Source: Blastococcus tunisiensis
GTDB lineage: Bacteria; Actinomycetota; Actinomycetes; Mycobacteriales; Geodermatophilaceae
Length of the DNA: 64,000 nucleotides
Direction of reading: 5' to 3'
Assembly: GCF_900112815.1 (NCBI RefSeq)
Contig: NZ_FOND01000003.1
Location: 1-64,000, forward strand
Part shown: positions 16,353 to 28,670 of the stretch, one piece after another
Layout of the letters: each line of letters begins with the position of its first letter
Numbering within the stretch: position 1 is the first letter of the stretch
Notes under the pieces: model-generated
What the model was told of the DNA's origin: nothing
Databases searched by the model: none
What the model saw: the letters and a program-made list of their open reading frames with translations, nothing else
Translations under genes and position numbers: made by a program

Positions 16353-18953
16353 TCACGGCGACACCCGGACGAGGCCGTGGGCGCCGCGTTCGGCGTCGAC
16401 CATGACGTGCGACACGAACGGGTAGTCGCCGGCCTCCGGGAACGCCAGCTCGACGAACCCGCCCTGGGCCGGTGCCAGCGCGAGCGCCTGGCTGCCGCCG
16501 TCCCCCGGCCGCAGCAGGTAGCCGCCCTCGGCGTAGACGGTGTCGAACTGGCCGCCGACGACGTGGAAGCTGGTCGCCCGGTTCGGGCCGGCGTCGAGCA
16601 CCCAGATCCGGACCCGCTCACCGACGCGGGCTGCCAGCGGCCGGGCGTCGTACTGGTTCGCGTATCCGTTGAACACGACCGCGTCGGGCCGTTCCCCGGC
16701 GAGCTTCGCGGTGTCCACCGTGCCGCCCTGCGGCCCCAGGTACAGCTCGGACTGCAGCAGCAGGTAGCTGCGGTCCACCGCCGGCAGGTCCGGCGGCTCG
16801 ATCACCACGGCGCCGAACATGCCGTTGGCGATGTGCGCCGACATGGGCATCGTCGAGCAGTGGTACATCCACACCCCGGCCCGGATCGCCGTGAAGCGGT
16901 AGACCAGCGACTCGCCGGGCGGGATCGTGCGCATCGGCCCGTCCGGGGCCAGGGCCCCGGCGTGGAAGTCGATCGAGTGCCCGATCGTGCCGTCGTTGAC
17001 CAGGGTGATCTCGAAGACGTCGCCCACCCGGCCGTGCAGGACCGGGCCCGGCGCCGTGCCGGCGAAGGTCCAGAGCCGCTGGGTCACACCCGGCGCGACC
17101 TCCCGCTCCACCTCGGCCACGGGAAGGGTGAACCGGCGCACGCGCTCGTCGGTCAGCGGGGGGAGCACGGGGTCGTGCGGGGTGAAGGAGCCGGCCGGCG
17201 CGGTGGCGAAGTCGAGGTCGTCGGCCGCGTCGCCGGCAGCGTTCTCCCCGTGGTGCGGAGCAGCCTCGGGAGTGGCCGCCCCGACCGCGCGGACCTGGAG
17301 GGTCATGCCCATCTGGCGGTGCCCGACCACCGAGCACCAGCCGTCGACGTCGCCACCGATGACGCCGGCGTCCAGGGTCGTCGATCCACCCGGGGACAGC
17401 CGCTCGGTGGCCGGCCCGGAGGAGAGGACCAGGTCGTGCACCGTGTCGGGGTCGCTGTTGACGAGCTCGATGACGAGCCGGTCGCCGACCGGCACCTCGA
17501 CCGTGTCGGGGGCGAAGCGCATGCCGGCGGCCGCGACCTGGACGGTGGTGGTCCGGCCGGTGGCCGCCACGTCGGCGGACGGCGCGGACATCGCGCGGAC
17601 GTCGGCGAGGGCGGCGGGGTCGACGGCCACGCCGGCCGCCACGGCGATCAGCACCGCCGCCACGCCGGTGGCGGCCAGGCCGGTGACCTGGCCGGCGGGG
17701 CGGCCGGTCCCGCGGGCGGGGACGGCGCCTCCCTCGGCCTCCCGCTTCGTGCGGCGGACGGTCCGGATGGCGAGGAACAGCAGCGGGACGAAGGTCGCCA
17801 GCCCGGCGAGGACCAGCATCGAGCAGAGCACCCGGACGACGCTCGGCACCGGCAGCGCGCAGAGCAGCAGCCCGGCGTTCACGACGGCGATCCGCAGGGC
17901 GCCGCCGCGGTCGAGCACCTCGTTCGCCGCGCGCACCGGACCGGCCCCGCCGCCCAGCGCCACCGGGACCAGGTAGGAGAGCGCACCCAGGAGGACCTGG
18001 GCGCCGAAGCCGGCGGCCAGGAACGGCGTCAGCCAGCGGAAGCGCTCGCCGGCCTCGGCCCAGGTGGGCGCCGTGCCCACCGCCAGTGCGGCCGCGAGCA
18101 GGCACCCGGCGAGCCAGAGCAGGCCGGCGGCCACCGACCAGGCGGGGTAGGACGACGGCGGCCGGGCGCGCGCGGTGGCGACCAGCGCCCGGGCGAGGAG
18201 CGCCAGGCCGCCCAGGTAGCCGGCAAGGCCCAGCCCGGCCACCCACTGCGGGCCGGCCACGGCGCCGCCGACCGTCAGCGCGAGGGCTGCGCCCAGGACG
18301 GGCAACGCCCGCCGCGCCGAGCGCTCGGCGTCCTCGGCGATGCGGGTGCGCAGCATGGTCGGCCACAGCGTCACCAGCGTCCCGGCGACGGTCAGCCCCA
18401 TCCAGCCCAGCACGTTGACCACGGCATGGGCCAGCGTCAGCCGGTCGTGCCAGGGGCCGGGCAGCCCGCGGGCCAGCAGGGTGCCGAGAACGGCCCCGAC
18501 GGGCAGCAGCGCCGCGGCGGTCAGGTAGTAGCGGACCGTCGTCCGGAAGCGGCCACCCAGCGAGCGGCGGAGCTGCGCGGCGAGGGCGAGGCCGTGCCAG
18601 CCGACGGCGGTGACGACCGCCGCCGCACCCGCGACCGTCAGCGGCCAGACGGCCAGGCTCACGCCGGCCATCACCAGCAGCGCACCGCCGTTGAGCAGCA
18701 GCAGGCGCCGCGACTGGGCCCGGCGGTCGCCCGGGCGGGAGTCGGTGCGCAGCAGGGCGTCGGCGAAGTGCCGGCTCCACACCAGGATCGCGTGGCTGAC
18801 CGCGCCGAGCAGCAGCAGGTGGATGAGCAACCACCGCGGGGCCGGCAGGGCGGGGTGCACCAGCGCGACCACGGCCGTGGCGAGCAGCCAGAACACCACC
18901 GGCAGGTCGCGCAGCGGCCAGAACCCCCGCGCCTGCCCGGCCGACGGGCTCAT
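16353..18953 (-). CDS. nirK: Membrane-fused copper nitrite reductase (NirK) with extra cupredoxin domain
   Basis: Reduces nitrite to nitric oxide. The 866-residue protein has three parts: a polytopic membrane region (about 15-450, roughly 11-12 helices), a plastocyanin-like cupredoxin (about 470-557), and a two-domain NirK core (about 600-866). All copper ligands are visible. In the extra cupredoxin, type 1 ligands are H506, C540, H545 and M550. In NirK, type 1 ligands are H659, C699, H707 and M712; type 2 ligands are H664, H698 and H849; catalytic D662 and H797 are present. The membrane part could take electrons from the quinone pool or an outer-face carrier and pass them through the cupredoxin to NirK. 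ATG overlaps the previous stop (ATGA). Confidence 0.93.
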   Translation of the reverse strand: MSPSAGQARGFWPLRDLPVVFWLLATAVVALVHPALPAPRWLLIHLLLLGAVSHAILVWSRHFADALLRTDSRPGDRRAQSRRLLLLNGGALLVMAGVSLAVWPLTVAGAAAVVTAVGWHGLALAAQLRRSLGGRFRTTVRYYLTAAALLPVGAVLGTLLARGLPGPWHDRLTLAHAVVNVLGWMGLTVAGTLVTLWPTMLRTRIAEDAERSARRALPVLGAALALTVGGAVAGPQWVAGLGLAGYLGGLALLARALVATARARPPSSYPAWSVAAGLLWLAGCLLAAALAVGTAPTWAEAGERFRWLTPFLAAGFGAQVLLGALSYLVPVALGGGAGPVRAANEVLDRGGALRIAVVNAGLLLCALPVPSVVRVLCSMLVLAGLATFVPLLFLAIRTVRRTKREAEGGAVPARGTGRPAGQVTGLAATGVAAVLIAVAAGVAVDPAALADVRAMSAPSADVAATGRTTTVQVAAAGMRFAPDTVEVPVGDRLVIELVNSDPDTVHDLVLSSGPATERLSPGGSTTLDAGVIGGDVDGWCSVVGHRQMGMTLQVRAVGAATPEAAPHHGENAAGDAADDLDFATAPAGSFTPHDPVLPPLTDERVRRFTLPVAEVEREVAPGVTQRLWTFAGTAPGPVLHGRVGDVFEITLVNDGTIGHSIDFHAGALAPDGPMRTIPPGESLVYRFTAIRAGVWMYHCSTMPMSAHIANGMFGAVVIEPPDLPAVDRSYLLLQSELYLGPQGGTVDTAKLAGERPDAVVFNGYANQYDARPLAARVGERVRIWVLDAGPNRATSFHVVGGQFDTVYAEGGYLLRPGDGGSQALALAPAQGGFVELAFPEAGDYPFVSHVMVDAERGAHGLVRVSP

Positions 18954-20128
18954 CGGGGCGCACCCACGCGCCGCGCGGCGAGGAGGACCGAGCCGACGGC
19001 CAGCGCCACGAACAGCACGACGGCCGCGATGTTCAGCACCCCGCCCCAGCGCCAGGCGGCCTCGTGCCCCAGCGCGTCACCGGCCCACAACCGCAGGGCC
19101 AGCGAGCCGTGCAGCAGGACGGCGGGAGCCACCAGCGCCGGGGTGTAGGGCAGCGGCCGCCGGAGGACGGCAGGGAGGATGACCGGCGCGTGCGCCATGA
19201 TCATCGAGATCGTGAAGCCGAGGAACACGGCGTGGACGACGGCGTCGTAGCGCACCCCCGTGGTCGCCGGTCCACCCACGAGCCAGATGGCGCCGGCGAC
19301 GCCGAGCCAGACGTAGCCGGCGAGCATGCAGCCGGCCATGAACCGGGTCAGGCCGCGCGCCCGGATCGTCCGCCGCGCCACGTCGTGCGCGGCCAGCCAG
19401 CCGACGAGGGCCAGCAGCGCCGTGCCGAGGAGCGCGGTGCCGGCGGCCGGCCAGAGCAGCGCGGCCACGATGCCGCCGAGCAGCCCGGCCGCCAGCAGCA
19501 CCAGCGTCGTCCCGGCACCGGGCCCCATCGCCAGCCGGGCCAGCTCCAGCCGTTCCCCGCCGATGGTGAGGACGACGAAGCCGACCAGCCAGGGCAGCAG
19601 CAGCGGAACGGGCACGCCGCCGAGCCAGAGGATCGCCGCACCCCCGGCCAGAGCGGCGCCCAGTGCCTGCACCAGGACGGCGTCGTCGCGCTGCCGGCGC
19701 CACAGGGCCACGTACACCCCGACGAAGGCCGCGGCGCCGAGCACCTGGACCGTCTGTCCCAGCTGCAGCGGCAGCGGGGTGATCAGCAGCAGGCCGCCGA
19801 GGCCGAGCAGCGCCGGGGCGAGGAAACCGGCCGGCCGGCGCAGTGCCACCGCGCGCTCGAGCGCGACCAGCGTCCCGACGAACCCGAGGACGAGCAGCAC
19901 GCCGTGCACCTGCGGCAGCCGGTCGAGCCGCACCGGGGCCGGCAGGTCCAGCAGGATCAGCGCGGCGTCCAGGCCCGCCAGCAGCGCGACGCCGCCGGGC
20001 AGCAGGAGGGCCAGCCGGCCTGCCACGGGGCGACGCGCAGCTCCGGGGGAGATCGCGGGCCGTGCGGCCGGGCCGTCGGGAGGTGCGGTGGCCGCCGTCG
20101 GGACCGCCGCGGCCAGGGCCTCACTCAT
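18950..20128 (-). CDS. Polytopic membrane protein of the nirK operon (NnrS-like)
   Basis: A 392-residue integral membrane protein with about 12 predicted helices. It carries a QVHGVLLVLGFVGTLVALERAVALRRP segment near residues 75-100 and HAVFLGFTISMIMAHAPVILP near 275-300, with conserved-looking His residues that could hold heme or copper. The fold resembles NnrS-type proteins, which ease nitrosative stress, and the membrane half of the neighbouring NirK, but identity is uncertain. The ATG at 20128 overlaps the stop of the regulator gene, and its own stop overlaps nirK's ATG, so the three genes are translationally coupled. A role in electron supply, copper handling or NO tolerance for NirK is inferred. 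Confidence 0.75.
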   Translation of the reverse strand: MSEALAAAVPTAATAPPDGPAARPAISPGAARRPVAGRLALLLPGGVALLAGLDAALILLDLPAPVRLDRLPQVHGVLLVLGFVGTLVALERAVALRRPAGFLAPALLGLGGLLLITPLPLQLGQTVQVLGAAAFVGVYVALWRRQRDDAVLVQALGAALAGGAAILWLGGVPVPLLLPWLVGFVVLTIGGERLELARLAMGPGAGTTLVLLAAGLLGGIVAALLWPAAGTALLGTALLALVGWLAAHDVARRTIRARGLTRFMAGCMLAGYVWLGVAGAIWLVGGPATTGVRYDAVVHAVFLGFTISMIMAHAPVILPAVLRRPLPYTPALVAPAVLLHGSLALRLWAGDALGHEAAWRWGGVLNIAAVVLFVALAVGSVLLAARRVGAPR

Positions 20129-20840
20129 CCGTGCCGCCGCCGGCGAGGGTCGTGTCCAGGTGGAGGCGGCAGGCGCCGGGCTCGGCGAAGGGCAGCAGGG
20201 CGGTCGGCTCGGGATCCCCGCCGGAGTGCTCGAGCGCGCCCCGCACGATCCCGAGGTGCACCTGGCACACCACCTCCGGGTACTGCCGGGCGGCGTCGAG
20301 CAGCGGGCAGCGGCGCAGCGCCACGGTGGTCGCGGCGGCGTCGGCCTCGGGGGCGAAGCCCAGCTCGTCGAGCAGGTCGACGACGCCGTGCCGGGGACTC
20401 GTGGCCGGCCCGACCGCGGGGCGGTGGGCGACCAGCGTCCGGCCCCAGTCCCGCCCGGCGGCCAGGCCCTCGGCGGCGGGGTCGGCGGCGGTACGGGTGA
20501 GGTGCCCGGCCAGCGCGCCGGCCAGGGCGGCGTAGTCGCGCACCCGGACGTCGGGCTCGAGCCGGTCCGCCGCTGCGGCGTAGCGCCACGCCGGCCGGCC
20601 ACGGCCCTGCGCGGGCGCGCGCTCCCGGACCGCCAGCCCCCGCTCGACGAGCGCGTCGAGGTGCTCGCGCGCGGTGTTGGCGTGCACGCCCATCTCCGCG
20701 GCGAGACCGGCGATCGTCACCGGTCGCGCCGCCCGCTGGAGGCGCTCCAGCACGGCGCCGCGGGCACCCGACAGCGGCGCGCCGACCGAGCCGCGGACCG
20801 GGGCCGGACCGAACTCCGGAGCGTCGCTCTTGTTTTTCAC
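20121..20840 (-). CDS. HTH regulator with C-terminal Cys cluster (COG2345/SufR-like), nirK operon
   Basis: A 239-residue regulator. A winged HTH (about 22-90) reads AVLERLQRAARPVTIAGLAAEMGVHANTAREHL in parts, followed by a wing with GRGRPAWRY. The C-terminal half has RCPLLDAARQYPEVVCQVH and a third Cys in EPGACRLHL, giving C-x13-C-x31-C plus His. SufR-type regulators use a similar arrangement to bind a Fe-S cluster, so redox or NO sensing is plausible. A paralogue with the same layout is at 23710-24435. Start GTG at 20840, with the divergent hemerythrin gene 62 bases away; it may control both directions. Its stop overlaps the next ATG. Confidence 0.85.
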   Translation of the reverse strand: MKNKSDAPEFGPAPVRGSVGAPLSGARGAVLERLQRAARPVTIAGLAAEMGVHANTAREHLDALVERGLAVRERAPAQGRGRPAWRYAAAADRLEPDVRVRDYAALAGALAGHLTRTAADPAAEGLAAGRDWGRTLVAHRPAVGPATSPRHGVVDLLDELGFAPEADAAATTVALRRCPLLDAARQYPEVVCQVHLGIVRGALEHSGGDPEPTALLPFAEPGACRLHLDTTLAGGGTDE

Positions 20841-20845
20841 GGTGC

Positions 20846-20854
20846 CTACCGTAG
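20846..20854. promoter_or_regulatory. Short dyad in the nirK divergent promoter region
   Basis: CTACCGTAG, a 4-bp dyad with one central base, lies 6 bases upstream of the regulator start in the 62-base gap shared with the hemerythrin operon. It is a possible operator half for the Cys-rich regulator; the short length keeps confidence low. Confidence 0.3.
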
Positions 20855-20902
20855 TAAATTGCCGACCAGACGGCCAGCGTGACCGTCCAGAAGGAGGAAG
20901 AC

Positions 20903-21706
20903 GTGACCACCACCCTGCCGCCCGACGCCGTCGACATGGTCCTGGCCTCGGACGCGGACGATGCCGCCGCCGTCGAGGCCGTGAAGCAGCACCACGCCGA
21001 ACTGGCCGGCCAGTTGTCCGCGCACGTCGACGCCCTGCTCGCGGCAGCCGACCGGGGTGTCGGCTTCGCGCAGGCACGAGCTGCCGCGCTGGGCTTCCTC
21101 GGCGGCGAGCTGCTCCCGCACGCCGCGGCCGAGGAGCGTTCGCTGTACCCGGCCGCCGCCGCGTCGGAGCGGCTCCGGCTGCTCGTCGAGGCGATGACGA
21201 CCGAGCACCGGGTGCTCGAGGGCCTGGTGCGCGAGCTGGACCGGGCCGCGGAACCCGTGCGCGCCGCGGCCGTCGGCCACGCGCTGCGCGTCCTCTTCGA
21301 CACGCACCTGGCCAAGGAGAACGACCTCGTGCTGCCCGCGGTCGCCGCCGATCCGGCCCTCTCGCTGGCCGGCGTGCTCGCCGGCATGCACGAGCTCCTG
21401 GGCGAGGATGCGCACGGGCACGACCGGGGCACCCCGCAGGCGCCTGCGCCGGGCAGCTGCGGCTGCGGTGGCCACGACGACGAGATCCCCGTCCTCGACG
21501 TGCGGGCGGTGCCGCACGCGATCCGCCACGCCACCGTCTTCGGCGCGTTCGACGCCGTGCCCCAGGGCGGCTCGCTGCTGCTGGTGGCGCCGCACGACCC
21601 GCTGCCCCTGCTGCGGCAGCTCTCCGCGCGGGCCGGGGGTGCGCTCGCCGTCGACTACGAGGAGCGCGGTCCGGAGGCCTGGCGGCTGCGGCTGACCCGT
21701 GCCTGA
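20903..21706 (+). CDS. Hemerythrin domain protein fused to DUF2249
   Basis: A 267-residue two-domain protein. The N-terminal hemerythrin HHE four-helix bundle (about 20-160) has expected iron ligands in QHHAEL, LPHAAAEE, TTEHRVLEG and FDTHLAKEND. A linker with GSCGCGGHDD, possibly a small metal site, leads to a C-terminal DUF2249 domain (about 195-267) with LDVRAVPHAIRH and LLLVAPHDPLPLL. Hemerythrins bind O2 or NO, and DUF2249 occurs in TusA-like or NO-related proteins; with divergent nirK this suggests NO sensing or detoxification. GTG at 20903 follows AAGGAGG, which rules out the earlier GTG at 20879. It overlaps the next gene by 8 bases. Confidence 0.88.
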   Translation: MTTTLPPDAVDMVLASDADDAAAVEAVKQHHAELAGQLSAHVDALLAAADRGVGFAQARAAALGFLGGELLPHAAAEERSLYPAAAASERLRLLVEAMTTEHRVLEGLVRELDRAAEPVRAAAVGHALRVLFDTHLAKENDLVLPAVAADPALSLAGVLAGMHELLGEDAHGHDRGTPQAPAPGSCGCGGHDDEIPVLDVRAVPHAIRHATVFGAFDAVPQGGSLLLVAPHDPLPLLRQLSARAGGALAVDYEERGPEAWRLRLTRA

Positions 21707-22265
21707 CGGACTCGTTCCTGACGCAGCGCGCCGACCACGCGCGTGGCTCCCCGCCGCGCCGTGGCCGGCCGTTGCCGGGCGCCTCGTGCTCGGCGGGGTG
21801 CTGGTCGTCGCCGGCGCGGTGAAGATCCCCGATCCGGCGGCCGCGGTCCGTGCCGTCCGCGCCTACCAGCTGATCCCCGAGCCGCTGGTCGCCCCGGTCG
21901 CCTTCGGGCTGCCGGTCCTCGAGGTGGCCCTCGGGCTGGCCCTGATCGCCGGCGTCCTCGTGCGGGCCGCCGCCCTGGCGGCCGCCGTCCTGCTGGTCGT
22001 CTTCATGGTCGGCGTCGCGTCCGCGTGGGCCCGCGGGCTGCAGATCGACTGCGGCTGCTTCGGCGGCGGCGGTGAGGTCGCCGCCGGCGACACCGCCTAC
22101 CCCGGCGAGCTGCTGCGCGACCTCGGCCTCCTGGCGGTCGCCCTGCTGCTGGCCCGCCGGCCACGCTCCCGGACCTGTCCGGCCGGAGCACCCCGCACCG
22201 CCCCGACCCTGCCCGGCGCACCCTCGCCGGCCGCACCCCTCCCGGAGGAGAGCCATGCCCGTTGA
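21699..22265 (+). CDS. MauE/DoxX-family membrane protein
   Basis: A 188-residue membrane protein of the MauE/DoxX group with four hydrophobic helices. VLGGVLVVAGAVKIPDP and a C-proximal IDCGCFGGGG motif are typical; related proteins work in disulfide handling of periplasmic redox enzymes (MauE with MauD). The tail after residue 150 is Pro/Ala-rich. GTG at 21699 overlaps the hemerythrin gene end, and the gene end overlaps the DsbA-like gene by 11 bases. It presumably passes reducing or oxidising power to that protein. A link to maturation of copper- or cysteine-containing nitrite proteins is inferred from position only. Confidence 0.85.
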   Translation: MPDGLVPDAARRPRAWLPAAPWPAVAGRLVLGGVLVVAGAVKIPDPAAAVRAVRAYQLIPEPLVAPVAFGLPVLEVALGLALIAGVLVRAAALAAAVLLVVFMVGVASAWARGLQIDCGCFGGGGEVAAGDTAYPGELLRDLGLLAVALLLARRPRSRTCPAGAPRTAPTLPGAPSPAAPLPEESHAR

Positions 22266-23025
22266 CCAGGTGACCGACCAGCGGCCCGCCCCGGGGAGGA
22301 AAGTGCCCGCGAAGCAGCGGATCGCCGCCCGCCGGGCCGCGGAGGCAGCCCGGGCCCGTGCGGCCCAGCGCCGGCGGACGCTCGCCCGCAGCGCCGTCGC
22401 CGCGGCCGTGCTCGTCGCGGTGGTCGTGCTCGCGATCGTCGTCCAGTCGCAGCGCACCTCCTCGGCACCGGACGCGGCCGTGCCGGCGAACACGGTCGAC
22501 GGCGGCATGGCGGTCGAGGTGGGCCGGGCGGACGCCCCCGCGACCCTCGATGTGTACGAGGACTTCCAGTGCCCGGCCTGTGCCCGGTTCGAGGCGCTCA
22601 GCGCCGGGACCATGGCTGCGCTGGTGGACGACGGCAGCGCTCGGGTGCGCTACCACCCGATGGCGTTCATCGACGAGTACTCGACCCGGGCGCTCAACGC
22701 CGCCGGCGTCGTCGTGGACGCCGCCGGCCCGGACGCCTTCGTCGAGTTCGCCGGCCTCCTCTACGACCGGCAGCCGGTCGAGGGCGGCCCGGGGCTCACC
22801 GACGACCAGCTGATCGAGCTGGCCGGGCAGGTCGGCGCCGCGGGTGCCGACGTCGAGCGCGGGATCCGCGACCTGGTGTTCGAGGACTGGACCAGATCGC
22901 TCACCGACCAGGCCAGCCGGGACGGCGTGAACAGCACCCCGACGATCCTGCTGGACGGGCAGCCGCTGGCCCCGGCGCAGCTCCAGCCGGTCGCGCTGGC
23001 CGAGGCGGTGCACGCCGCCGCCTGA
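22255..23025 (+). CDS. Membrane-anchored DsbA/thioredoxin-like protein
   Basis: A 256-residue protein with an Arg/Ala-rich cytoplasmic N-terminus, one membrane helix (about 42-62, SAVAAAVLVAVVVLAIVV) and an external thioredoxin-fold domain. The redox motif is CPAC in YEDFQCPACARFE near residue 103, and the cis-Pro loop is NSTPTILLDG, as in DsbA-like thiol-disulfide oxidoreductases. ATG at 22255 has GGAGGAG 5 bases upstream. It is the last gene of the hemerythrin-MauE-DsbA operon and is followed by a perfect hairpin. It likely forms or reshuffles disulfides in exported proteins, with the MauE-like partner. Confidence 0.9.
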   Translation: MPVDQVTDQRPAPGRKVPAKQRIAARRAAEAARARAAQRRRTLARSAVAAAVLVAVVVLAIVVQSQRTSSAPDAAVPANTVDGGMAVEVGRADAPATLDVYEDFQCPACARFEALSAGTMAALVDDGSARVRYHPMAFIDEYSTRALNAAGVVVDAAGPDAFVEFAGLLYDRQPVEGGPGLTDDQLIELAGQVGAAGADVERGIRDLVFEDWTRSLTDQASRDGVNSTPTILLDGQPLAPAQLQPVALAEAVHAAA

Positions 23026-23640: not shown

Positions 23641-23653
23641 GCATCGGGGATGC
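23641..23653. promoter_or_regulatory. Dyad between cupin and nar-region regulator
   Basis: GCATC-GGG-GATGC is a perfect 5-bp dyad with a 3-base centre, in the divergent gap about 57 bases before the regulator start and 42 bases before the cupin start. It is a candidate operator; its brevity limits confidence. Confidence 0.3.
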
Positions 23654-23709
23654 ACTCGATGTGGGCAGATCGGGAGCGGGTGTGCCGGTTGCCGCTCACA
23701 ATGGTGGGC

Positions 23710-24435
23710 ATGTCCGACCGAGCCCCCGCGGTCGTCGGGGACGATCCCAGCGGGCGGCGGCACGTGGCGCTCGCCGTGCGGTCGCGTCGGCGGATGCTCG
23801 ACGCGCTGCGGGCGGCCGGGCGTCCGCTCCCCGTCGTGGAGCTGGCGGCCGCCGTGGGGTTGCACGTCACCACGGCACGGATCCATCTGCGGACACTGGA
23901 GGCAGCCGGGCTCGTCGCGCGGACCCCGCAGCCGCCGGCCGGCCGTGGTCGGCCCGGTCACCTCTACGCGGCGGTCGCCGGCGGCGCGCCGGTGGAGGGC
24001 CACCGCCAGCTCGCCGAGCTGCTCGCCGCCGCTCTCGAGGCCGGCGACCCGGACGGGCCGCGCCGGGCGGAGCAGGTCGGTCGCCGGTGGGCCGCGGACC
24101 AGGTTCCCGAGCTCGGCGACCTCTCCTGGGAGGAGGCCCTCGGCGGCCTGGAGGGGCTGTTCGACCGGCTGGGTTTCGCGCCGCGCCGGATCGATGTCGA
24201 TCACCGGTTCCGGGTCGCGCTCGACCGCTGCCCTTTCCGGGAGGTAGCGCGGTCGCACCCGTCCGTGGTCTGCTCACTGCACCTGGGGCTGATGCGGGGG
24301 GCGCTGTCCCGGTACGGCTGGGAGACGGCCGCCGCCTCCGCCGTGCTCGAACCGTTCGTGGCCTCGGAGCTGTGCCTGGCCGAGGTTCCCGGAGCTCCGC
24401 CGCCGAGCGGTTCGCACCCGCTCGGCGGCGATTAA
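23710..24435 (+). CDS. HTH regulator with C-terminal Cys cluster, nar region (paralogue of the nirK regulator)
   Basis: A 241-residue regulator with the layout of the protein at 20121-20840: winged HTH (LPVVELAAAVGLHVTTARIHL, wing GRGRPGHLY), a helical middle, and a C-terminal RCPFREVARSHPSVVCSLHLGLMRGAL with third Cys in SELCLAEV. The spacing is C-x13-C-x33-C, so a Fe-S or metal sensor is likely. It heads a plus-strand run of ferredoxin, narGHJI and narK, and diverges from a cupin. ATG at 23710 is chosen; ATG 23701 and GTG 23704 are alternatives, and no good ribosome binding site is present, so it may be leaderless. Confidence 0.83.
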   Translation: MSDRAPAVVGDDPSGRRHVALAVRSRRRMLDALRAAGRPLPVVELAAAVGLHVTTARIHLRTLEAAGLVARTPQPPAGRGRPGHLYAAVAGGAPVEGHRQLAELLAAALEAGDPDGPRRAEQVGRRWAADQVPELGDLSWEEALGGLEGLFDRLGFAPRRIDVDHRFRVALDRCPFREVARSHPSVVCSLHLGLMRGALSRYGWETAAASAVLEPFVASELCLAEVPGAPPPSGSHPLGGD

Positions 24436-24492: not shown

Positions 24493-24834
24493 GTGACGTA
24501 CGTGATCGCCGAACCGTGCATCGACGTATTGGATCGAGCCTGTGTCGACGAGTGCCCTGTCGACTGCATCTACGAGGGTGAGCGGGCGCTCTACATCCAT
24601 CCCGACGAGTGCGTCGACTGCGGGGCCTGCGAGCCGGTCTGCCCCGTGGAGGCCATCTACTACGAGGACGACGTCCCCGGGAAGTGGTCGGTGTTCACCG
24701 CCGACAACGCCCTCTTCTTCAGCGAACCGCTGCCCGGCCGCGACGCACCGCTCGGCTCTCCCGGCGGTGCGGCGAGGACGGGTGCCGTCGGGGTGGACAC
24801 CCCGCTGGTCGGTGGCCACCCGCGCCAGGCCTGA
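24493..24834 (+). CDS. fdxA: 7Fe (3Fe-4S/4Fe-4S) ferredoxin
   Basis: A 113-residue ferredoxin of the actinobacterial FdxA type. The first cluster region has EPCIDVLDRACVDECPVDC and the second has CVDCGACEPVCP followed by the closing VEAIYYEDDVP. The C-terminal 40 residues are a variable tail. GTG at 24493 is preceded by GGAGGGAGCG. It sits between the Cys-rich regulator and narG, so it may supply electrons to nitrate or nitrite enzymes or to Fe-S assembly under low oxygen. The expected electron partner is not shown by sequence. Confidence 0.93.
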   Translation: MTYVIAEPCIDVLDRACVDECPVDCIYEGERALYIHPDECVDCGACEPVCPVEAIYYEDDVPGKWSVFTADNALFFSEPLPGRDAPLGSPGGAARTGAVGVDTPLVGGHPRQA

Positions 24835-24953
24835 ACCGGTGTCCGGCGGCGCCCCCGGCGCGTCGGGATGCGGCCCCGCCCGGTGGCCGGTGTGATGCAG
24901 AGGGCGGGCCTTTGTGCCGGGGGACACGATCTACACGACGCAGAAGGAGAGCT

Positions 24954-27900
24954 GTGACGCTCGCACCTGAAGGCAGCCGGCAGGCCACTGACGGGAAGGC
25001 CGGGTTCGACGGCGGCCTGTCGGAGGCGCTGGTCAAGACCTCGCGGTTCTTCCGCAAGGGGGAGGTCAGTGCCGACCAGCGGTCGCTGCACCAGATCGGC
25101 GGGCGGGACGCCGACAGCTTCTACCGGGACCGGTGGTCGCACGACAAGGTCGTCCGGTCCACGCACGGCGTGAACTGCACCGGCTCCTGCTCGTGGAAGG
25201 TCTACGTCAAGGACGGGATCATCACCTGGGAGGCGCAGCAGACCGACTACCCGTCGACGGGCGCCGACCGGCCGGAGTACGAGCCCCGCGGCTGCCCGCG
25301 CGGCGCCGCCTTCTCCTGGTACACCTACTCGCCGACCCGGGTGCGCTACCCCTACGTCCGCGGGTCCCTCCTGCAGATGTACCGCGAAGCCCGGCAGCGC
25401 CTCGGTGACCCCGTCCTCGCCTGGGCGGACATCGTCGACGACCCGGAGAAGGCCCGCACCTACAAGTCGCAGCGCGGCAAGGGCGGCCTGGTCCGCTCCA
25501 GCTGGGACGAGGCGACCGAGATGATCGCCGCCGCCCACGTCCACACGATCAAGAAGTACGGGCCGGACCGGATCGCCGGGTTCTCCCCGATCCCGGCCAT
25601 GTCGATGGTGTCGCACGCCGCCGGTGCGCGCTTCATGTCGCTCATCGGCGCACCCATGCTGTCCTTCTACGACTGGTACGCCGACCTGCCGGTCGCCTCG
25701 CCGCAGGTGTTCGGCGACCAGACCGACGTCCCCGAGTCCGGTGACTGGTGGGACGCGGCCTACCTCATCCTCTGGGGCTCCAACGTCCCGGTGACCCGCA
25801 CGCCCGACGCGCACTGGATGACCGAGGCCCGTTACCGGGGCCAGAAGGTCGTCGTCATGAGCCCCGACTACTCCGACGCGACCAAGTTCGCCGACGACTG
25901 GCTGGCCCCACACCCGGGCACCGACGGCGCCCTGGCCATGGCCATGGGGCACGTCGTGCTCAAGGAGTTCTTCGTCGACCGGCAGGTGCCCCGCTTCACC
26001 GAGTACGTGAAGAAGTACTCCGACCTGCCGTTCCTGCTCACGCTCACCCCGCACGGCGACAGTTACGTCCCGGGCAAGTTCCTCACCGCCGCCGACCTCG
26101 GGGACATGGAGGAGGGCGCGGAGTTCAAGACCGTGCTCGTCGACTCCGCCACCGACGAGCCGCACGTCCCCAACGGCTCGCTCGGCTTCCGCTTCGGCGA
26201 GTCGGGCAAGGGCAAGTGGAACCTCGACCTCGGGGACGTCGATCCGCGGCTGAGCCTCTACGACGGCGCCGCCGAGACGGTGACCGTCGACCTCGCCCGC
26301 TTCGACACCGCCCGCGGCGAGGGGGCGGCGATGCGCCGCGGCGTGCCGGTGCGCCGGCTCGGCAAGCACCTGGTGACCACGGTGTACGACGTGCTGCTGG
26401 CCCAGTTCGGTGTCGGCCGCGCCGGCCTGCCCGGGGAGTGGCCGGCCGGGCTGGACGACGCCTCGCAGCCCTACACCCCCGCGTGGCAGGAGCAGTTCAC
26501 CGGCGTGTCCGCGGCCGCCGCGGCGCGGATCGGCCGGGAGTTCGCGCAGAACGCCGACGAGTCCAAGGGCCGGTCCATGATCATCATGGGGGCCGGGACC
26601 AACCACTGGTTCCACTCCGACACGATCTACCGCGCCTTCCTGACCCTGACCACGCTCACCGGCTGCCAGGGCGTGAACGGCGGCGGCTGGGCGCACTACG
26701 TCGGCCAGGAGAAGTGCCGCCCGGTCACCGGCTGGACGACGCTCGCCTCCGCCCTGGACTGGGCCCGACCGCCGCGGCAGATGATCCAGACCGCCTACTG
26801 GTACCTGCACACCGACCAGTGGCGCTACGACCAGACGACGCTGGACGGCTTCGCCTCGCCGCTGGGCAAGGGCAGCTTCGACGGCAGGACGCCGGCCGAC
26901 GTGCTCGCGCAGTCGGCCCGCATGGGCTGGATGCCGTCCTACCCGACCTTCAACCGCAACCCGCTCGACCTCGCCGACGAGGCGGCCGCCGCGGGCAAGG
27001 AGCCGGGGGAGCACGTGATCGACGGGCTGCGCGACGGCAGCCTGCGCTTCGCCGCCGAGGACCCCGACGCCCCCGAGAACTTCCCCCGGGTCCTGACCAT
27101 CTGGCGGGCCAACCTGCTCGGCTCCTCGGCGAAGGGGAACGAGTACTTCCTCAAGCACCTGCTCGGCACCGACAACGCCGTCCGCGCCGAGGAGGCCCCG
27201 CCGGAGGCGCGGCCGCAGGACCTGGTCTGGCGGGAGGAGGCACCCACCGGCAAGTTGGACCTGCTCCTCGCCCTGGATTTCCGGATGACCAGCACGACGA
27301 TCTACTCCGACATCACGCTGCCGGCCGCCACCTGGTACGAGAAGCACGACCTCAACACCACGGACATGCACCCGTACGTGCACTCGTTCAACCCGGCCAT
27401 CGCGCCACCGTGGGAGACGCGCACCGACTTCGACGCCTTCGGCACGATCGCCCGCCAGTTCAGCCGGCTGGCCGCCACCCACCTCGGCGTCCGCAAGGAC
27501 CTGATGGCGCTGCCGCTGATGCACGACACCCCGGACGCGATGGCCAACCCCCGCGGGGTGGTGCGCGACTGGAAGGCCGGCGAGTGCGACCCGGTGCCCG
27601 GCCGGACGATGCCGAAGTTCGTCGTCCAGGAGCGGGACTACTCGGCGATCGCCCAGAAGTGGTCGGCGCTCGGCCCGCTGGTGGAGAAGCTGGGCCTGAC
27701 CACCAAGGGCGTCACCACGATGCCCGACAAGGAGGTCGAGTACCTCAAGCACAAGAACGGCGTCATCCGTGACGGTGCGGCGGCCGGGCGGCCGGCGCTG
27801 GCCCGTGACGTGCATTGGTGCGAGGCGATCCTGGCCCTGTCCGGGACGACGAACGGGCGGCTGGCCACCCAGGGCTTCCACCGGGCCGAGGAGCGCACCG

Positions 27901-28670
27901 GCATGCGGATGGCCGACCTGGCCGAGGAGCACGAGGGCAAGCTGGTCACCTTCAGCGACACCCAGTCCCGGCCGACCCCCGTGATCACCTCCCCGGAGTG
28001 GTCGGGCAGCGAGACCGGTGGACGCCGCTACTCGCCGTTCACCATCAACGTGGAGCGGCTGAAGCCCTGGCACACGCTCACCGGCCGCATGCAGTTCTTC
28101 CTCGACCACGACTGGATGACCGAGGCGGGGGAGAACCTGCCGGTGTTCCGGCCGCCGCTGGACATGCACACCCTGTTCGGCGAGCCGCACGTCGGTGAGC
28201 AGGGCGAGCTGGGCATCACCGTCCGGTACCTGACCCCGCACAACAAGTGGTCGATCCACTCGGAGTACCAGGACAACCTGTTCATGCTGTCGCTGTCCCG
28301 CGGTGGGCAGACGATCTGGATGAGCGTCCAGGACGCCGCCAAGGTCGGGGTGAAGGACAACGACTGGATCGAGGCGGTCAACCGCAACGGCGTCGTGGCC
28401 GCCCGCGCGATCGTGTCCACCCGCATGCCGGAGGGCACCGTCTACATGCACCACGCGCAGGACCGGCTCATCGACGTCCCGCTCACCGAGACCTCCGGCA
28501 AGCGCGGCGGCATCCACAACTCGCTGACCCGGCTGTTCCTCAAGCCCACCCACCTGATCGGCGGGTACGCGCAGCTGTCGTTCGCCTTCAACTACCTCGG
28601 GCCGACCGGGAACCAGCGCGACGAAGTGACCGTGATCCGCCGCCGCAGCAACCAGGAGGTCCAGTACTGA
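24954..28670 (+). CDS. narG: Respiratory nitrate reductase, alpha subunit
   Basis: Catalytic subunit of the membrane-bound NarGHI complex; reduces nitrate to nitrite at a molybdenum bis-MGD centre on the cytoplasmic side. The 1238 residues match the family length of about 1230. The FS0 cluster ligands H71, C75, C79 (HGVNCTGSCSW) and C114 (RGCPRG) are in place, and YDWYADLP carries the molybdenum-binding Asp. GTG at 24954 is preceded by AAGGAGA and begins the family-like sequence; the open frame extends further upstream across fdxA but is not coding. Its TGA overlaps the narH ATG by one base. Confidence 0.98.
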   Translation: MTLAPEGSRQATDGKAGFDGGLSEALVKTSRFFRKGEVSADQRSLHQIGGRDADSFYRDRWSHDKVVRSTHGVNCTGSCSWKVYVKDGIITWEAQQTDYPSTGADRPEYEPRGCPRGAAFSWYTYSPTRVRYPYVRGSLLQMYREARQRLGDPVLAWADIVDDPEKARTYKSQRGKGGLVRSSWDEATEMIAAAHVHTIKKYGPDRIAGFSPIPAMSMVSHAAGARFMSLIGAPMLSFYDWYADLPVASPQVFGDQTDVPESGDWWDAAYLILWGSNVPVTRTPDAHWMTEARYRGQKVVVMSPDYSDATKFADDWLAPHPGTDGALAMAMGHVVLKEFFVDRQVPRFTEYVKKYSDLPFLLTLTPHGDSYVPGKFLTAADLGDMEEGAEFKTVLVDSATDEPHVPNGSLGFRFGESGKGKWNLDLGDVDPRLSLYDGAAETVTVDLARFDTARGEGAAMRRGVPVRRLGKHLVTTVYDVLLAQFGVGRAGLPGEWPAGLDDASQPYTPAWQEQFTGVSAAAAARIGREFAQNADESKGRSMIIMGAGTNHWFHSDTIYRAFLTLTTLTGCQGVNGGGWAHYVGQEKCRPVTGWTTLASALDWARPPRQMIQTAYWYLHTDQWRYDQTTLDGFASPLGKGSFDGRTPADVLAQSARMGWMPSYPTFNRNPLDLADEAAAAGKEPGEHVIDGLRDGSLRFAAEDPDAPENFPRVLTIWRANLLGSSAKGNEYFLKHLLGTDNAVRAEEAPPEARPQDLVWREEAPTGKLDLLLALDFRMTSTTIYSDITLPAATWYEKHDLNTTDMHPYVHSFNPAIAPPWETRTDFDAFGTIARQFSRLAATHLGVRKDLMALPLMHDTPDAMANPRGVVRDWKAGECDPVPGRTMPKFVVQERDYSAIAQKWSALGPLVEKLGLTTKGVTTMPDKEVEYLKHKNGVIRDGAAAGRPALARDVHWCEAILALSGTTNGRLATQGFHRAEERTGMRMADLAEEHEGKLVTFSDTQSRPTPVITSPEWSGSETGGRRYSPFTINVERLKPWHTLTGRMQFFLDHDWMTEAGENLPVFRPPLDMHTLFGEPHVGEQGELGITVRYLTPHNKWSIHSEYQDNLFMLSLSRGGQTIWMSVQDAAKVGVKDNDWIEAVNRNGVVAARAIVSTRMPEGTVYMHHAQDRLIDVPLTETSGKRGGIHNSLTRLFLKPTHLIGGYAQLSFAFNYLGPTGNQRDEVTVIRRRSNQEVQY

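Follow-up and report, generated by a model that had tools for sequence, protein, structure and literature searches.

The first 64,000 nucleotides of contig NZ_FOND01000003.1 of Blastococcus tunisiensis, referred to below as the window and belonging to a genome of 5.04 Mb in 43 contigs, contain six genes in two divergent operons around a shared promoter region. One operon encodes a regulator, an NnrS-like membrane protein and a membrane-fused copper nitrite reductase (NirK), the other a hemerythrin-DUF2249 protein, a MauE/DoxX membrane protein and a DsbA-like protein. The locus is interpreted as a self-regulated divergon for nitrite respiration, an interpretation that is considered fairly probable and that draws on gene content, its conservation, a conserved palindrome, predicted folds and conserved ligands, all computed here. 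By analogy, the regulator is probably a SufR-like, nitrite- or nitric oxide (NO)-responsive switch over membrane nitrite reduction and NO handling.

Gene content and conservation of the nirK divergon

The first-pass annotation, made from the DNA sequence, had described six genes around one divergent region and overlaps of ATGA or longer within both operons. All six open reading frames (ORFs) could be found, the gap between the operons (20841-20902) measures 62 bases, and the overlaps amount to 8, 4, 8 and 11 bases. The minus strand carries nirK (16353-18953), the NnrS-like gene (18950-20128) and the regulator gene (20121-20840, GTG start at 20838-20840), the plus strand the genes for hemerythrin-DUF2249 (20903-21706), MauE/DoxX (21699-22265) and the DsbA-like protein (22255-23025).

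Gene neighbourhoods were compared in 80 nirK loci, the best 80 of at least 511 confirmed, by tblastn (E ≤ 1e-3, ≥ 38 bits) over up to 9 kb on each side. The titles of 79 loci are consistent with Actinomycetota, while L167 is a metagenome-assembled genome titled Acidobacteria; the genera named in the titles are Blastococcus, Nocardioides, Pseudonocardia, Mycobacterium, Streptomyces, Rhodococcus, Microbacterium, Oerskovia and Knoellia, among others. An NnrS-like gene was found in 66 loci, the regulator in 63, DUF2249 in 61, hemerythrin in 34 and NarG in 13. Hemerythrin (HHE) domains were counted by similarity to that of the window, so other hemerythrins are missed, and some loci end at contig edges, where full scoring is impossible. 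All 66 NnrS-like genes are located directly upstream of nirK on the same strand and end within 400 bases of its start. Two layouts recur, in which either DUF2249 faces regulator, NnrS-like gene and nirK, or the regulator faces DUF2249, NnrS-like gene and nirK, with DUF2249 accompanied by hemerythrin or not. The count of NnrS-like genes from the layout tally was not used, as the NirK membrane part can match as well (L165, L170, L171). A further 60 fetched stretches were read for their neighbourhoods; the locus sets share some genomes. The earlier proposal of a divergon that makes and handles NO under an iron-sulfur (Fe-S)-type sensor is thus supported by the regulator, NnrS-like protein, NirK and DUF2249 standing together in most of the 80 loci, and its sensor part by the SufR-like cysteine pattern and the shared candidate operator described below.

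Within the class, this NirK type or a part of it was detected in 54 of 394 genomes (E ≤ 1e-80), some matches covering the copper or the membrane portion only. In L072, L077, L095 and L096, from relatives with large genomes, an NnrS-like gene precedes nirK, no regulator was recognised and narG lies a few kb away; control of nirK may differ there.

The regulator and a candidate operator

The regulator has an N-terminal winged helix-turn-helix domain (Pfam PF12840) and three C-terminal cysteines, C178-x13-C192-x31-C224, with H195 between the last two. These four residues are kept in all 62 aligned regulators, namely that of the window, its paralogue REG2 and those of 60 loci passing the filter. 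The same architecture is known from SufR of cyanobacteria, Mycobacterium and Streptomyces. For SufR of M. tuberculosis, C203, C216 and C244 are reported as needed for function in vivo (PMC6034842), and SufR is described as losing repression once NO or reactive oxygen species damage its 4Fe-4S cluster (PMC9045647). The spacings differ (C203-x12-C216-x27-C244 in M. tuberculosis), and the protein described here stands beside nirK and nar genes, has an additional invariant histidine and falls far under the family cut-off. It probably holds an Fe-S cluster via the three invariant cysteines.

A candidate operator palindrome, TTTACTAC-N10-GTGAAAAA (20833-20858, minus strand), overlaps the regulator start. 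For its analysis, 80 divergent regions were used, that of the window and those among 140 fetched loci in which the regulator faces hemerythrin or DUF2249. A score of at least 15 was reached by 64 regions, and their 55 unique segments give AATTTAYTACANTNNNNNCCGTGRAAAATA, in which GTG is the regulator start. A -10-like hexamer (TACANT; TACGGT at 20848-20853 in the window, within the candidate palindrome) is located 7 bases ahead of the GTG, as in leaderless promoters, whose -10 box keeps such a spacing to the start codon, and the regulator start is therefore probably leaderless.

The pattern TTTAYTAC-N10-GTRRWAAA has one exact site in the 5.04 Mb genome, at the nirK divergon, which is also its sole site at up to two mismatches; the palindrome's own reverse lies at two mismatches, and the only other place at three, the same as the control. 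Of 28 chosen genomes, 17 contain the site with at most one mismatch and none the reversed pattern, and 15 of the 17 have it either at the regulator that belongs to the nirK locus or ahead of nirK; four congeners without nirK have no site at this level. In the class sample of 394 genomes, the exact site occurs in 8, of which 7 are among the 54 genomes with nirK (Fisher p 5e-6, a guide only, as the genomes are related). At up to one mismatch, 52 genomes match, made up of 15 of the 54 that have nirK and 37 of the 340 that do not (p 0.002). Among the 140 fetched loci, 64 carry the site at up to two mismatches and 2 the reversed pattern. We take the palindrome to be the putative binding site of the regulator, through which repression and the response to NO would act.

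Sites outside the standard arrangement were followed in several genomes. In G088, regulator and nirK lie on separate contigs (108 and 370 kb), with a palindrome before each. In the nirK locus of this genome (L047, 8108-8160), a short frame starting at GTG follows the palindrome and seems to overlap the nirK start, as though loss of the regulator and NnrS-like genes had joined the promoter to nirK. About 350 bases ahead of a hemerythrin gene of G088, which also gives a DUF2249 match below the threshold, there is a two-mismatch site. G029 has extra sites before two more hemerythrin genes (1 and 2 mismatches), one of them common to REG2. In G470, a one-mismatch site separates a narK-narG operon from a moaA-like gene, the names narK and moaA (L214) being assigned by eye. 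In G116, the site precedes FdxA and adjoins a REG2-like gene, a set resembling the REG2-FdxA-narG order of the window. The extra sites in G029, G470 and G116 may be REG2 sites. From the 37 site-bearing genomes without nirK, the three with the fullest motif likeness were chosen (L226, L227, L228; no nirK of this type detected). In all three, the palindrome stands at the regulator opposite DUF2249; two have a recognisable hemerythrin, and two have narG in the vicinity.

Copper domains of NirK

The nirK gene encodes a protein of 866 amino acids, in which a 12-helix part with predicted heme-copper oxidase (HCO) fold, a probable 13th helix, a cupredoxin domain and the copper nitrite reductase (CuNIR) domains follow each other according to Pfam, NCBIfam, AlphaFold, Foldseek and the alignments. 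The catalytic domains (residues 604-864; 16362-17144, minus strand) match NCBIfam TIGR02376 with E 2.1e-48 at 165.3 bits, under the equivalog cut-off of 296.3, so that the protein is regarded as a divergent NirK. Pfam detects Cupredoxin_1 and multicopper oxidase domains. H659, D662, H664, H698, C699, H707, H797 and H849 are invariant in 30 of 30 aligned full-length proteins, and at the type-1 copper position M712, 28 of them have Met and 2 have Leu; the assignment of these residues to the copper ligand scheme is presumed. The complete set of NirK copper ligands claimed by the first-pass annotation is accordingly present, invariant except for Met712. The proteins with Leu at this position are those of L050 and L053. 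The extra cupredoxin (17289-17567, minus strand) has H506, C540, H545 and M550, likewise invariant in 30 of 30.

Residues 425-445 (17619-17681, minus strand), with a hydropathy maximum of 2.42 at residue 426, form a probable 13th transmembrane helix, which would place the copper domains outside. The same build is published for NirK of the Propionibacterium acnes type, with about 900 amino acids, a predicted transmembrane domain of 400 amino acids and an extra cupredoxin (PMC4770552). The membrane domain is described there as of unknown function, whereas here an HCO fold is predicted for it, and both the gene context and a palindrome are found to be conserved.

Predicted heme-copper oxidase fold of both membrane proteins

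The 12-helix fold of HCO subunit I is predicted for the NirK membrane part (residues 1-424; 17682-18953, minus strand) as well as for the NnrS-like protein. AlphaFold models were obtained with pLDDT values of 94.1 and 91.7, respectively. For the NirK part, the top 43 Foldseek matches against the PDB are all heme-copper oxidases or NO reductase, four of them at E ≤ 0.001, the best being CcoN of a cbb3 oxidase (E 4.8e-4, probability 1.00, TM 0.64). The best match of the NnrS-like protein is NorB (E 1.1e-3), followed by ba3 and cbb3 oxidases; its first 20 matches all belong to the HCO superfamily, none at E ≤ 0.001. TM-scores of mostly 0.5-0.7 suggest a common fold rather than close kinship.

In the NirK part, H45 (helix 2) and H176 (helix 6) are conserved in 30 of 30 and H120 (helix 4) in 29 of 30 sequences of the widest set (alignment A3), and all three in 57 of 57 sequences of alignment A4; H33 is conserved in the closer set only. 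The NnrS-like protein has conserved H75 in helix 2 and H299 and H313 in helix 10. Presumably, H45 and the pair H75/H299 fit the low-spin heme positions of HCO geometry, and H176 fits the helix-6 metal ligand. According to the alignments, helix 7 has no conserved histidine in either protein, nor has helix 10 of the NirK part, and the full set of six HCO histidine ligands for the hemes and CuB/FeB is absent from both. The proteins thus resemble subunit I of heme-copper oxidases and NO reductases in predicted fold and differ in the missing helix-7 histidine. For this reason, a canonical binuclear centre is not expected, and neither protein should be an oxidase or NO reductase; the latter assignment was rejected for both, as the conserved ligands are insufficient.

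Sequence comparisons were less clear than the folds. With PF00115 (COX1), 4 of 30 NirK-part members matched at E ≤ 1 (best 5.3e-4) and 1 of 57 at E ≤ 0.1; profile matches to the genome's own aa3 oxidases are weak and short. Compared directly by BLAST, the NnrS-like protein and the NirK part matched no better than reversed sequences, and homology at this level was discarded. In profile comparisons addressing the same question, A9 matched A2 and A4 with probabilities of 54% and 69% (reversed 0.8% and 2.9%) and A5 matched A4 with 26% (reversed 0.4%), while the NnrS-like family matched NirK-part profiles with E 1.2e-4 and 4.5e-5 (reversed 0.066 and 0.015). This is suggestive of kinship between the two, not strongly. 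The NirK part gave no match to the NnrS profile (probability 1.9%); with one NnrS sequence 65% was obtained, in a shifted register and with no reversed control.

Taken jointly, these features would allow NirK to be a one-chain menaquinol:nitrite reductase with the NnrS-like protein as partner, a combined reading that is tentative and rather doubtful. The HCO-fold domain, having lost its oxygen site, would take electrons from quinol, and the adjoining cupredoxin, in an arrangement like that of oxidase subunits I and II, would relay them to the nitrite-reducing copper centres; the NnrS-like protein, also of HCO fold, would be a paralogue of the NirK part and its NO-binding partner.

The NnrS-like protein and its orthologues

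The NnrS-like protein of the window has no Pfam match at E ≤ 0.01. The gathering score of NnrS (PF05940), 28 bits, is not reached by its family, with 1 of 24 members matching at E 0.14 and 0 of 49 at E ≤ 0.1, and one proteobacterial orthologue obtains 13.4 bits. An assignment as plain NnrS was rejected on this basis. The family profile matches the NnrS profile with E 2.7e-4 (reversed profile 0.28), which supports kinship, not strongly, and H299 is aligned to His304 of NnrS, which is invariant (5 of 5). The label "NnrS-like" chosen by the first-pass annotation therefore holds in the sense of a relative in fold and, weakly, in profile, and does not extend to a Pfam NnrS match. The neighbours are linked to NO, as in NnrS itself.

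By tblastn, NnrS-like matches were found on 8 proteobacterial plasmid records (two of one strain), each with a query cover of 21-28%. Four whole orthologues align at 34-38% identity, the Paraburkholderia one at 39% over 274 residues. The orthologues in L186, L187, L188 and L190 are unannotated. Neighbouring genes encode DUF2249, a DUF59-type Fe-S assembly protein, hemerythrin, Rrf2 regulators, and NO reductase or hmp; these plasmid neighbours tie the NnrS-like family to NO independently of nirK. A separate NnrS gene lies near the NnrS-like gene in 3 of 4 proteobacterial loci, adjoining it or within about 4 kb on Variovorax, Paraburkholderia and Jiella plasmids; two of these were confirmed by Pfam. 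In the phylum of the window, Pfam NnrS was found in 1 of 296 genomes.

The hemerythrin-DUF2249, MauE and DsbA arm

The first protein of the opposite operon consists of a hemerythrin domain (residues 23-146; E 1.2e-18, 68.3 bits against a cut-off of 25.3) and a DUF2249 domain (residues 197-266; E 9.6e-25, 86.7 against 29.5). Four hemerythrin iron-ligand motifs had been claimed for it; the domain match agrees with them and is the check that was made of the motifs. DUF2249 proteins are reported in nitrate respiration (PMC6282519, PMC11218638). In Thermus, DrpA and DrpB have DUF2249 within nitrate respiration clusters and are proposed nitrate sensors, and in strains without both Drp proteins nar expression becomes nitrate-independent (PMC6282519). 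Here, in contrast, DUF2249 forms a fusion with hemerythrin or a protein of its own, mostly with CxCG, and lies opposite an Fe-S-type regulator. DrpB was considered as an equivalent of the NnrS-like protein and rejected, being described as DUF1858 with two DUF2249 domains (PMC6282519). In DUF2249-only loci (L105, L116, L143 and others), the proteins have about 100 amino acids and mostly begin with CxCG and continue with a PHAIRH stretch, possibly a metal-binding feature; those of L153 and L176 have no CxCG.

The MauE/DoxX protein has a CGC motif (Pfam MauE, E 1e-27, 97.4 bits against 27). The DsbA-like protein has a thioredoxin fold, with the CPAC announced earlier located at 22570-22581, and a single N-terminal hydrophobic stretch; it matches Thioredoxin_4 (E 1.7e-21, 77.6 against 23.2 bits) and remains below the cut-off of PF01323 (DsbA; 23.7 against 25.6 bits). 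In the 80 loci, one MauE match of at least 38 bits was found (L102, 46 residues, 50% identity) and one DsbA match (L109, 31% identity, about 7.7 kb from nirK); a 55-residue piece of L045, cut at the same place as L102, gave no Pfam match. In the 60 other stretches, full-length MauE occurs solely in L041, L043, L046 and L048, and DsbA in these four and in L075 (5 kb away, 35%). MauE and DsbA adjoin the regulator in 5 of 10 nirK genomes of the family (the window, L041, L043, L046, L048); of the remaining five, L042 breaks off at the hemerythrin gene. L048 no longer has hemerythrin-DUF2249; its MauE gene lies opposite the regulator across about 60 bases that carry the palindrome, and because the pair faces the operator there without hemerythrin-DUF2249, it looks like a lineage-specific member of the regulon. 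The two genes look like family-level add-ons sharing the promoter rather than parts of the conserved system, and were rejected as core members. Their expected retention beside nirK in relatives was thus found for half of the nirK genomes of the family and not outside the family, and thiol-redox support as a general feature of the divergon, as first suggested, is not borne out by one weak match each.

Proposed mechanism and alternative explanations

In the mechanism that we infer, above all with respect to cluster binding, the electron path and the role of MauE and DsbA, the regulator would bind one palindrome spanning the -10 box and the leaderless GTG start of its own gene, a position from which it would control both operons. 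As in SufR, repression would be lifted once NO damages the Fe-S cluster. One arm would then produce the NnrS-like membrane protein and NirK, which, tethered by its 13-helix part with the first 12 helices in the HCO fold, would turn nitrite from the neighbouring Nar enzyme into NO outside the membrane. The product of the other arm, hemerythrin-DUF2249, would be an intracellular binder of NO or iron and would report on nitrate or NO status, in the way proposed for DUF2249 proteins in the nitrate respiration of Thermus (PMC6282519). MauE and DsbA, added in the family of the window, would keep exported thiols oxidised. The four PF00115 proteins detected in this genome are all of the aa3 type, and no NO reductase was seen by this PF00115 test; the hemerythrin and the NnrS-like protein are candidates for NO handling.

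Several observations weigh against this mechanism. The regulator scores 19.5 bits against the NCBIfam SufR_cyano cut-off of 178.8. Fourteen of the 80 nirK loci have no NnrS-like gene, some of them being cut by contig ends, and nirK is patchy, occurring in 2 of 16 congeners (E ≤ 1e-30) and 10 of 112 family genomes (E ≤ 1e-60). The motif was read by eye and then scored on the same regions, and 16 of the 80 score low, several of these having the second layout. Seven of 24 nirK genomes have no site at up to one mismatch (G057, G333, G287, G247, G289, G192, G367), and G116 and G470 have theirs away from nirK. Many of the genomes matching at up to one mismatch are small, belong to one family and also give control matches, which makes single sites at this level weak.

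Detoxification instead of respiration, with NirK, the NnrS-like protein and hemerythrin removing nitrite and NO leaked from Nar at no net energy gain, is unlikely. It would agree with the lack of an NO reductase among the PF00115 proteins, with hemerythrin-like dnrN and nnrS being part of NO-responsive regulons in proteobacteria (PMC1274295), and with NnrS-like orthologues having a gene for NO reductase, hmp, Rrf2 or hemerythrin at most about 6 kb away. However, NirK makes NO and alone would worsen NO stress, the narG start and the regulator are about 4 kb apart, and the regulator lies a few kb from narG in two of the three followed loci without nirK. Less likely again is a regulator that senses iron or oxygen in the manner of SufR or IscR, with control of nirK being secondary. 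The SufR pattern alone leaves the signal unfixed, and cluster presence and redox state are reported to change the binding of cyanobacterial SufR (PMC6034842), whereas the followed non-standard sites adjoin nirK, hemerythrin/DUF2249, narK-moaA and FdxA genes, the suf operon not having been looked for. That the palindrome is no operator and is conserved merely as -10 box, leaderless start and first regulator codons is quite improbable. In its favour, the right arm encodes the first regulator residues in most loci, and in G088 a short frame that begins at this GTG seems to continue into the nirK start. Against it, the left arm reaches past the -10 box, and palindromes occur without a regulator start at narK/moaA in G470 (1 mismatch) and at the hemerythrin genes of G029 (1 and 2).

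Among the published systems close to the proposed self-regulated nitrite-respiration divergon are the NsrR and NnrR regulons of proteobacteria. They place nirK, nnrS and the hemerythrin-like dnrN under NO-responsive regulators (PMC1274295), which belong to other families there (NsrR; FNR-like NnrR). The fused NirK (PMC4770552) and DUF2249 in nitrate respiration (PMC6282519, PMC11218638) are already known from the literature; the HCO fold of the NirK part, the palindrome and the divergon were not found in a literature search that covered few subscription papers. The predicted HCO fold of the NirK membrane part opens direct tests, and the palindrome offers a handle, with one exact site in the genome and hemerythrin and nar/moa sites in some relatives. 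The NnrS-like family, whose members reach no Pfam entry, is found near NO genes in two phyla.

Neighbouring genes

Downstream of the DsbA-like gene, the plus strand carries REG2 (23650-24435), a cysteine-containing regulator paralogous to the first, with a start perhaps nearer 23710. It is followed by FdxA and narG (24493-28670), the ferredoxin gene (24493-24834, NCBIfam) being located immediately before narG.

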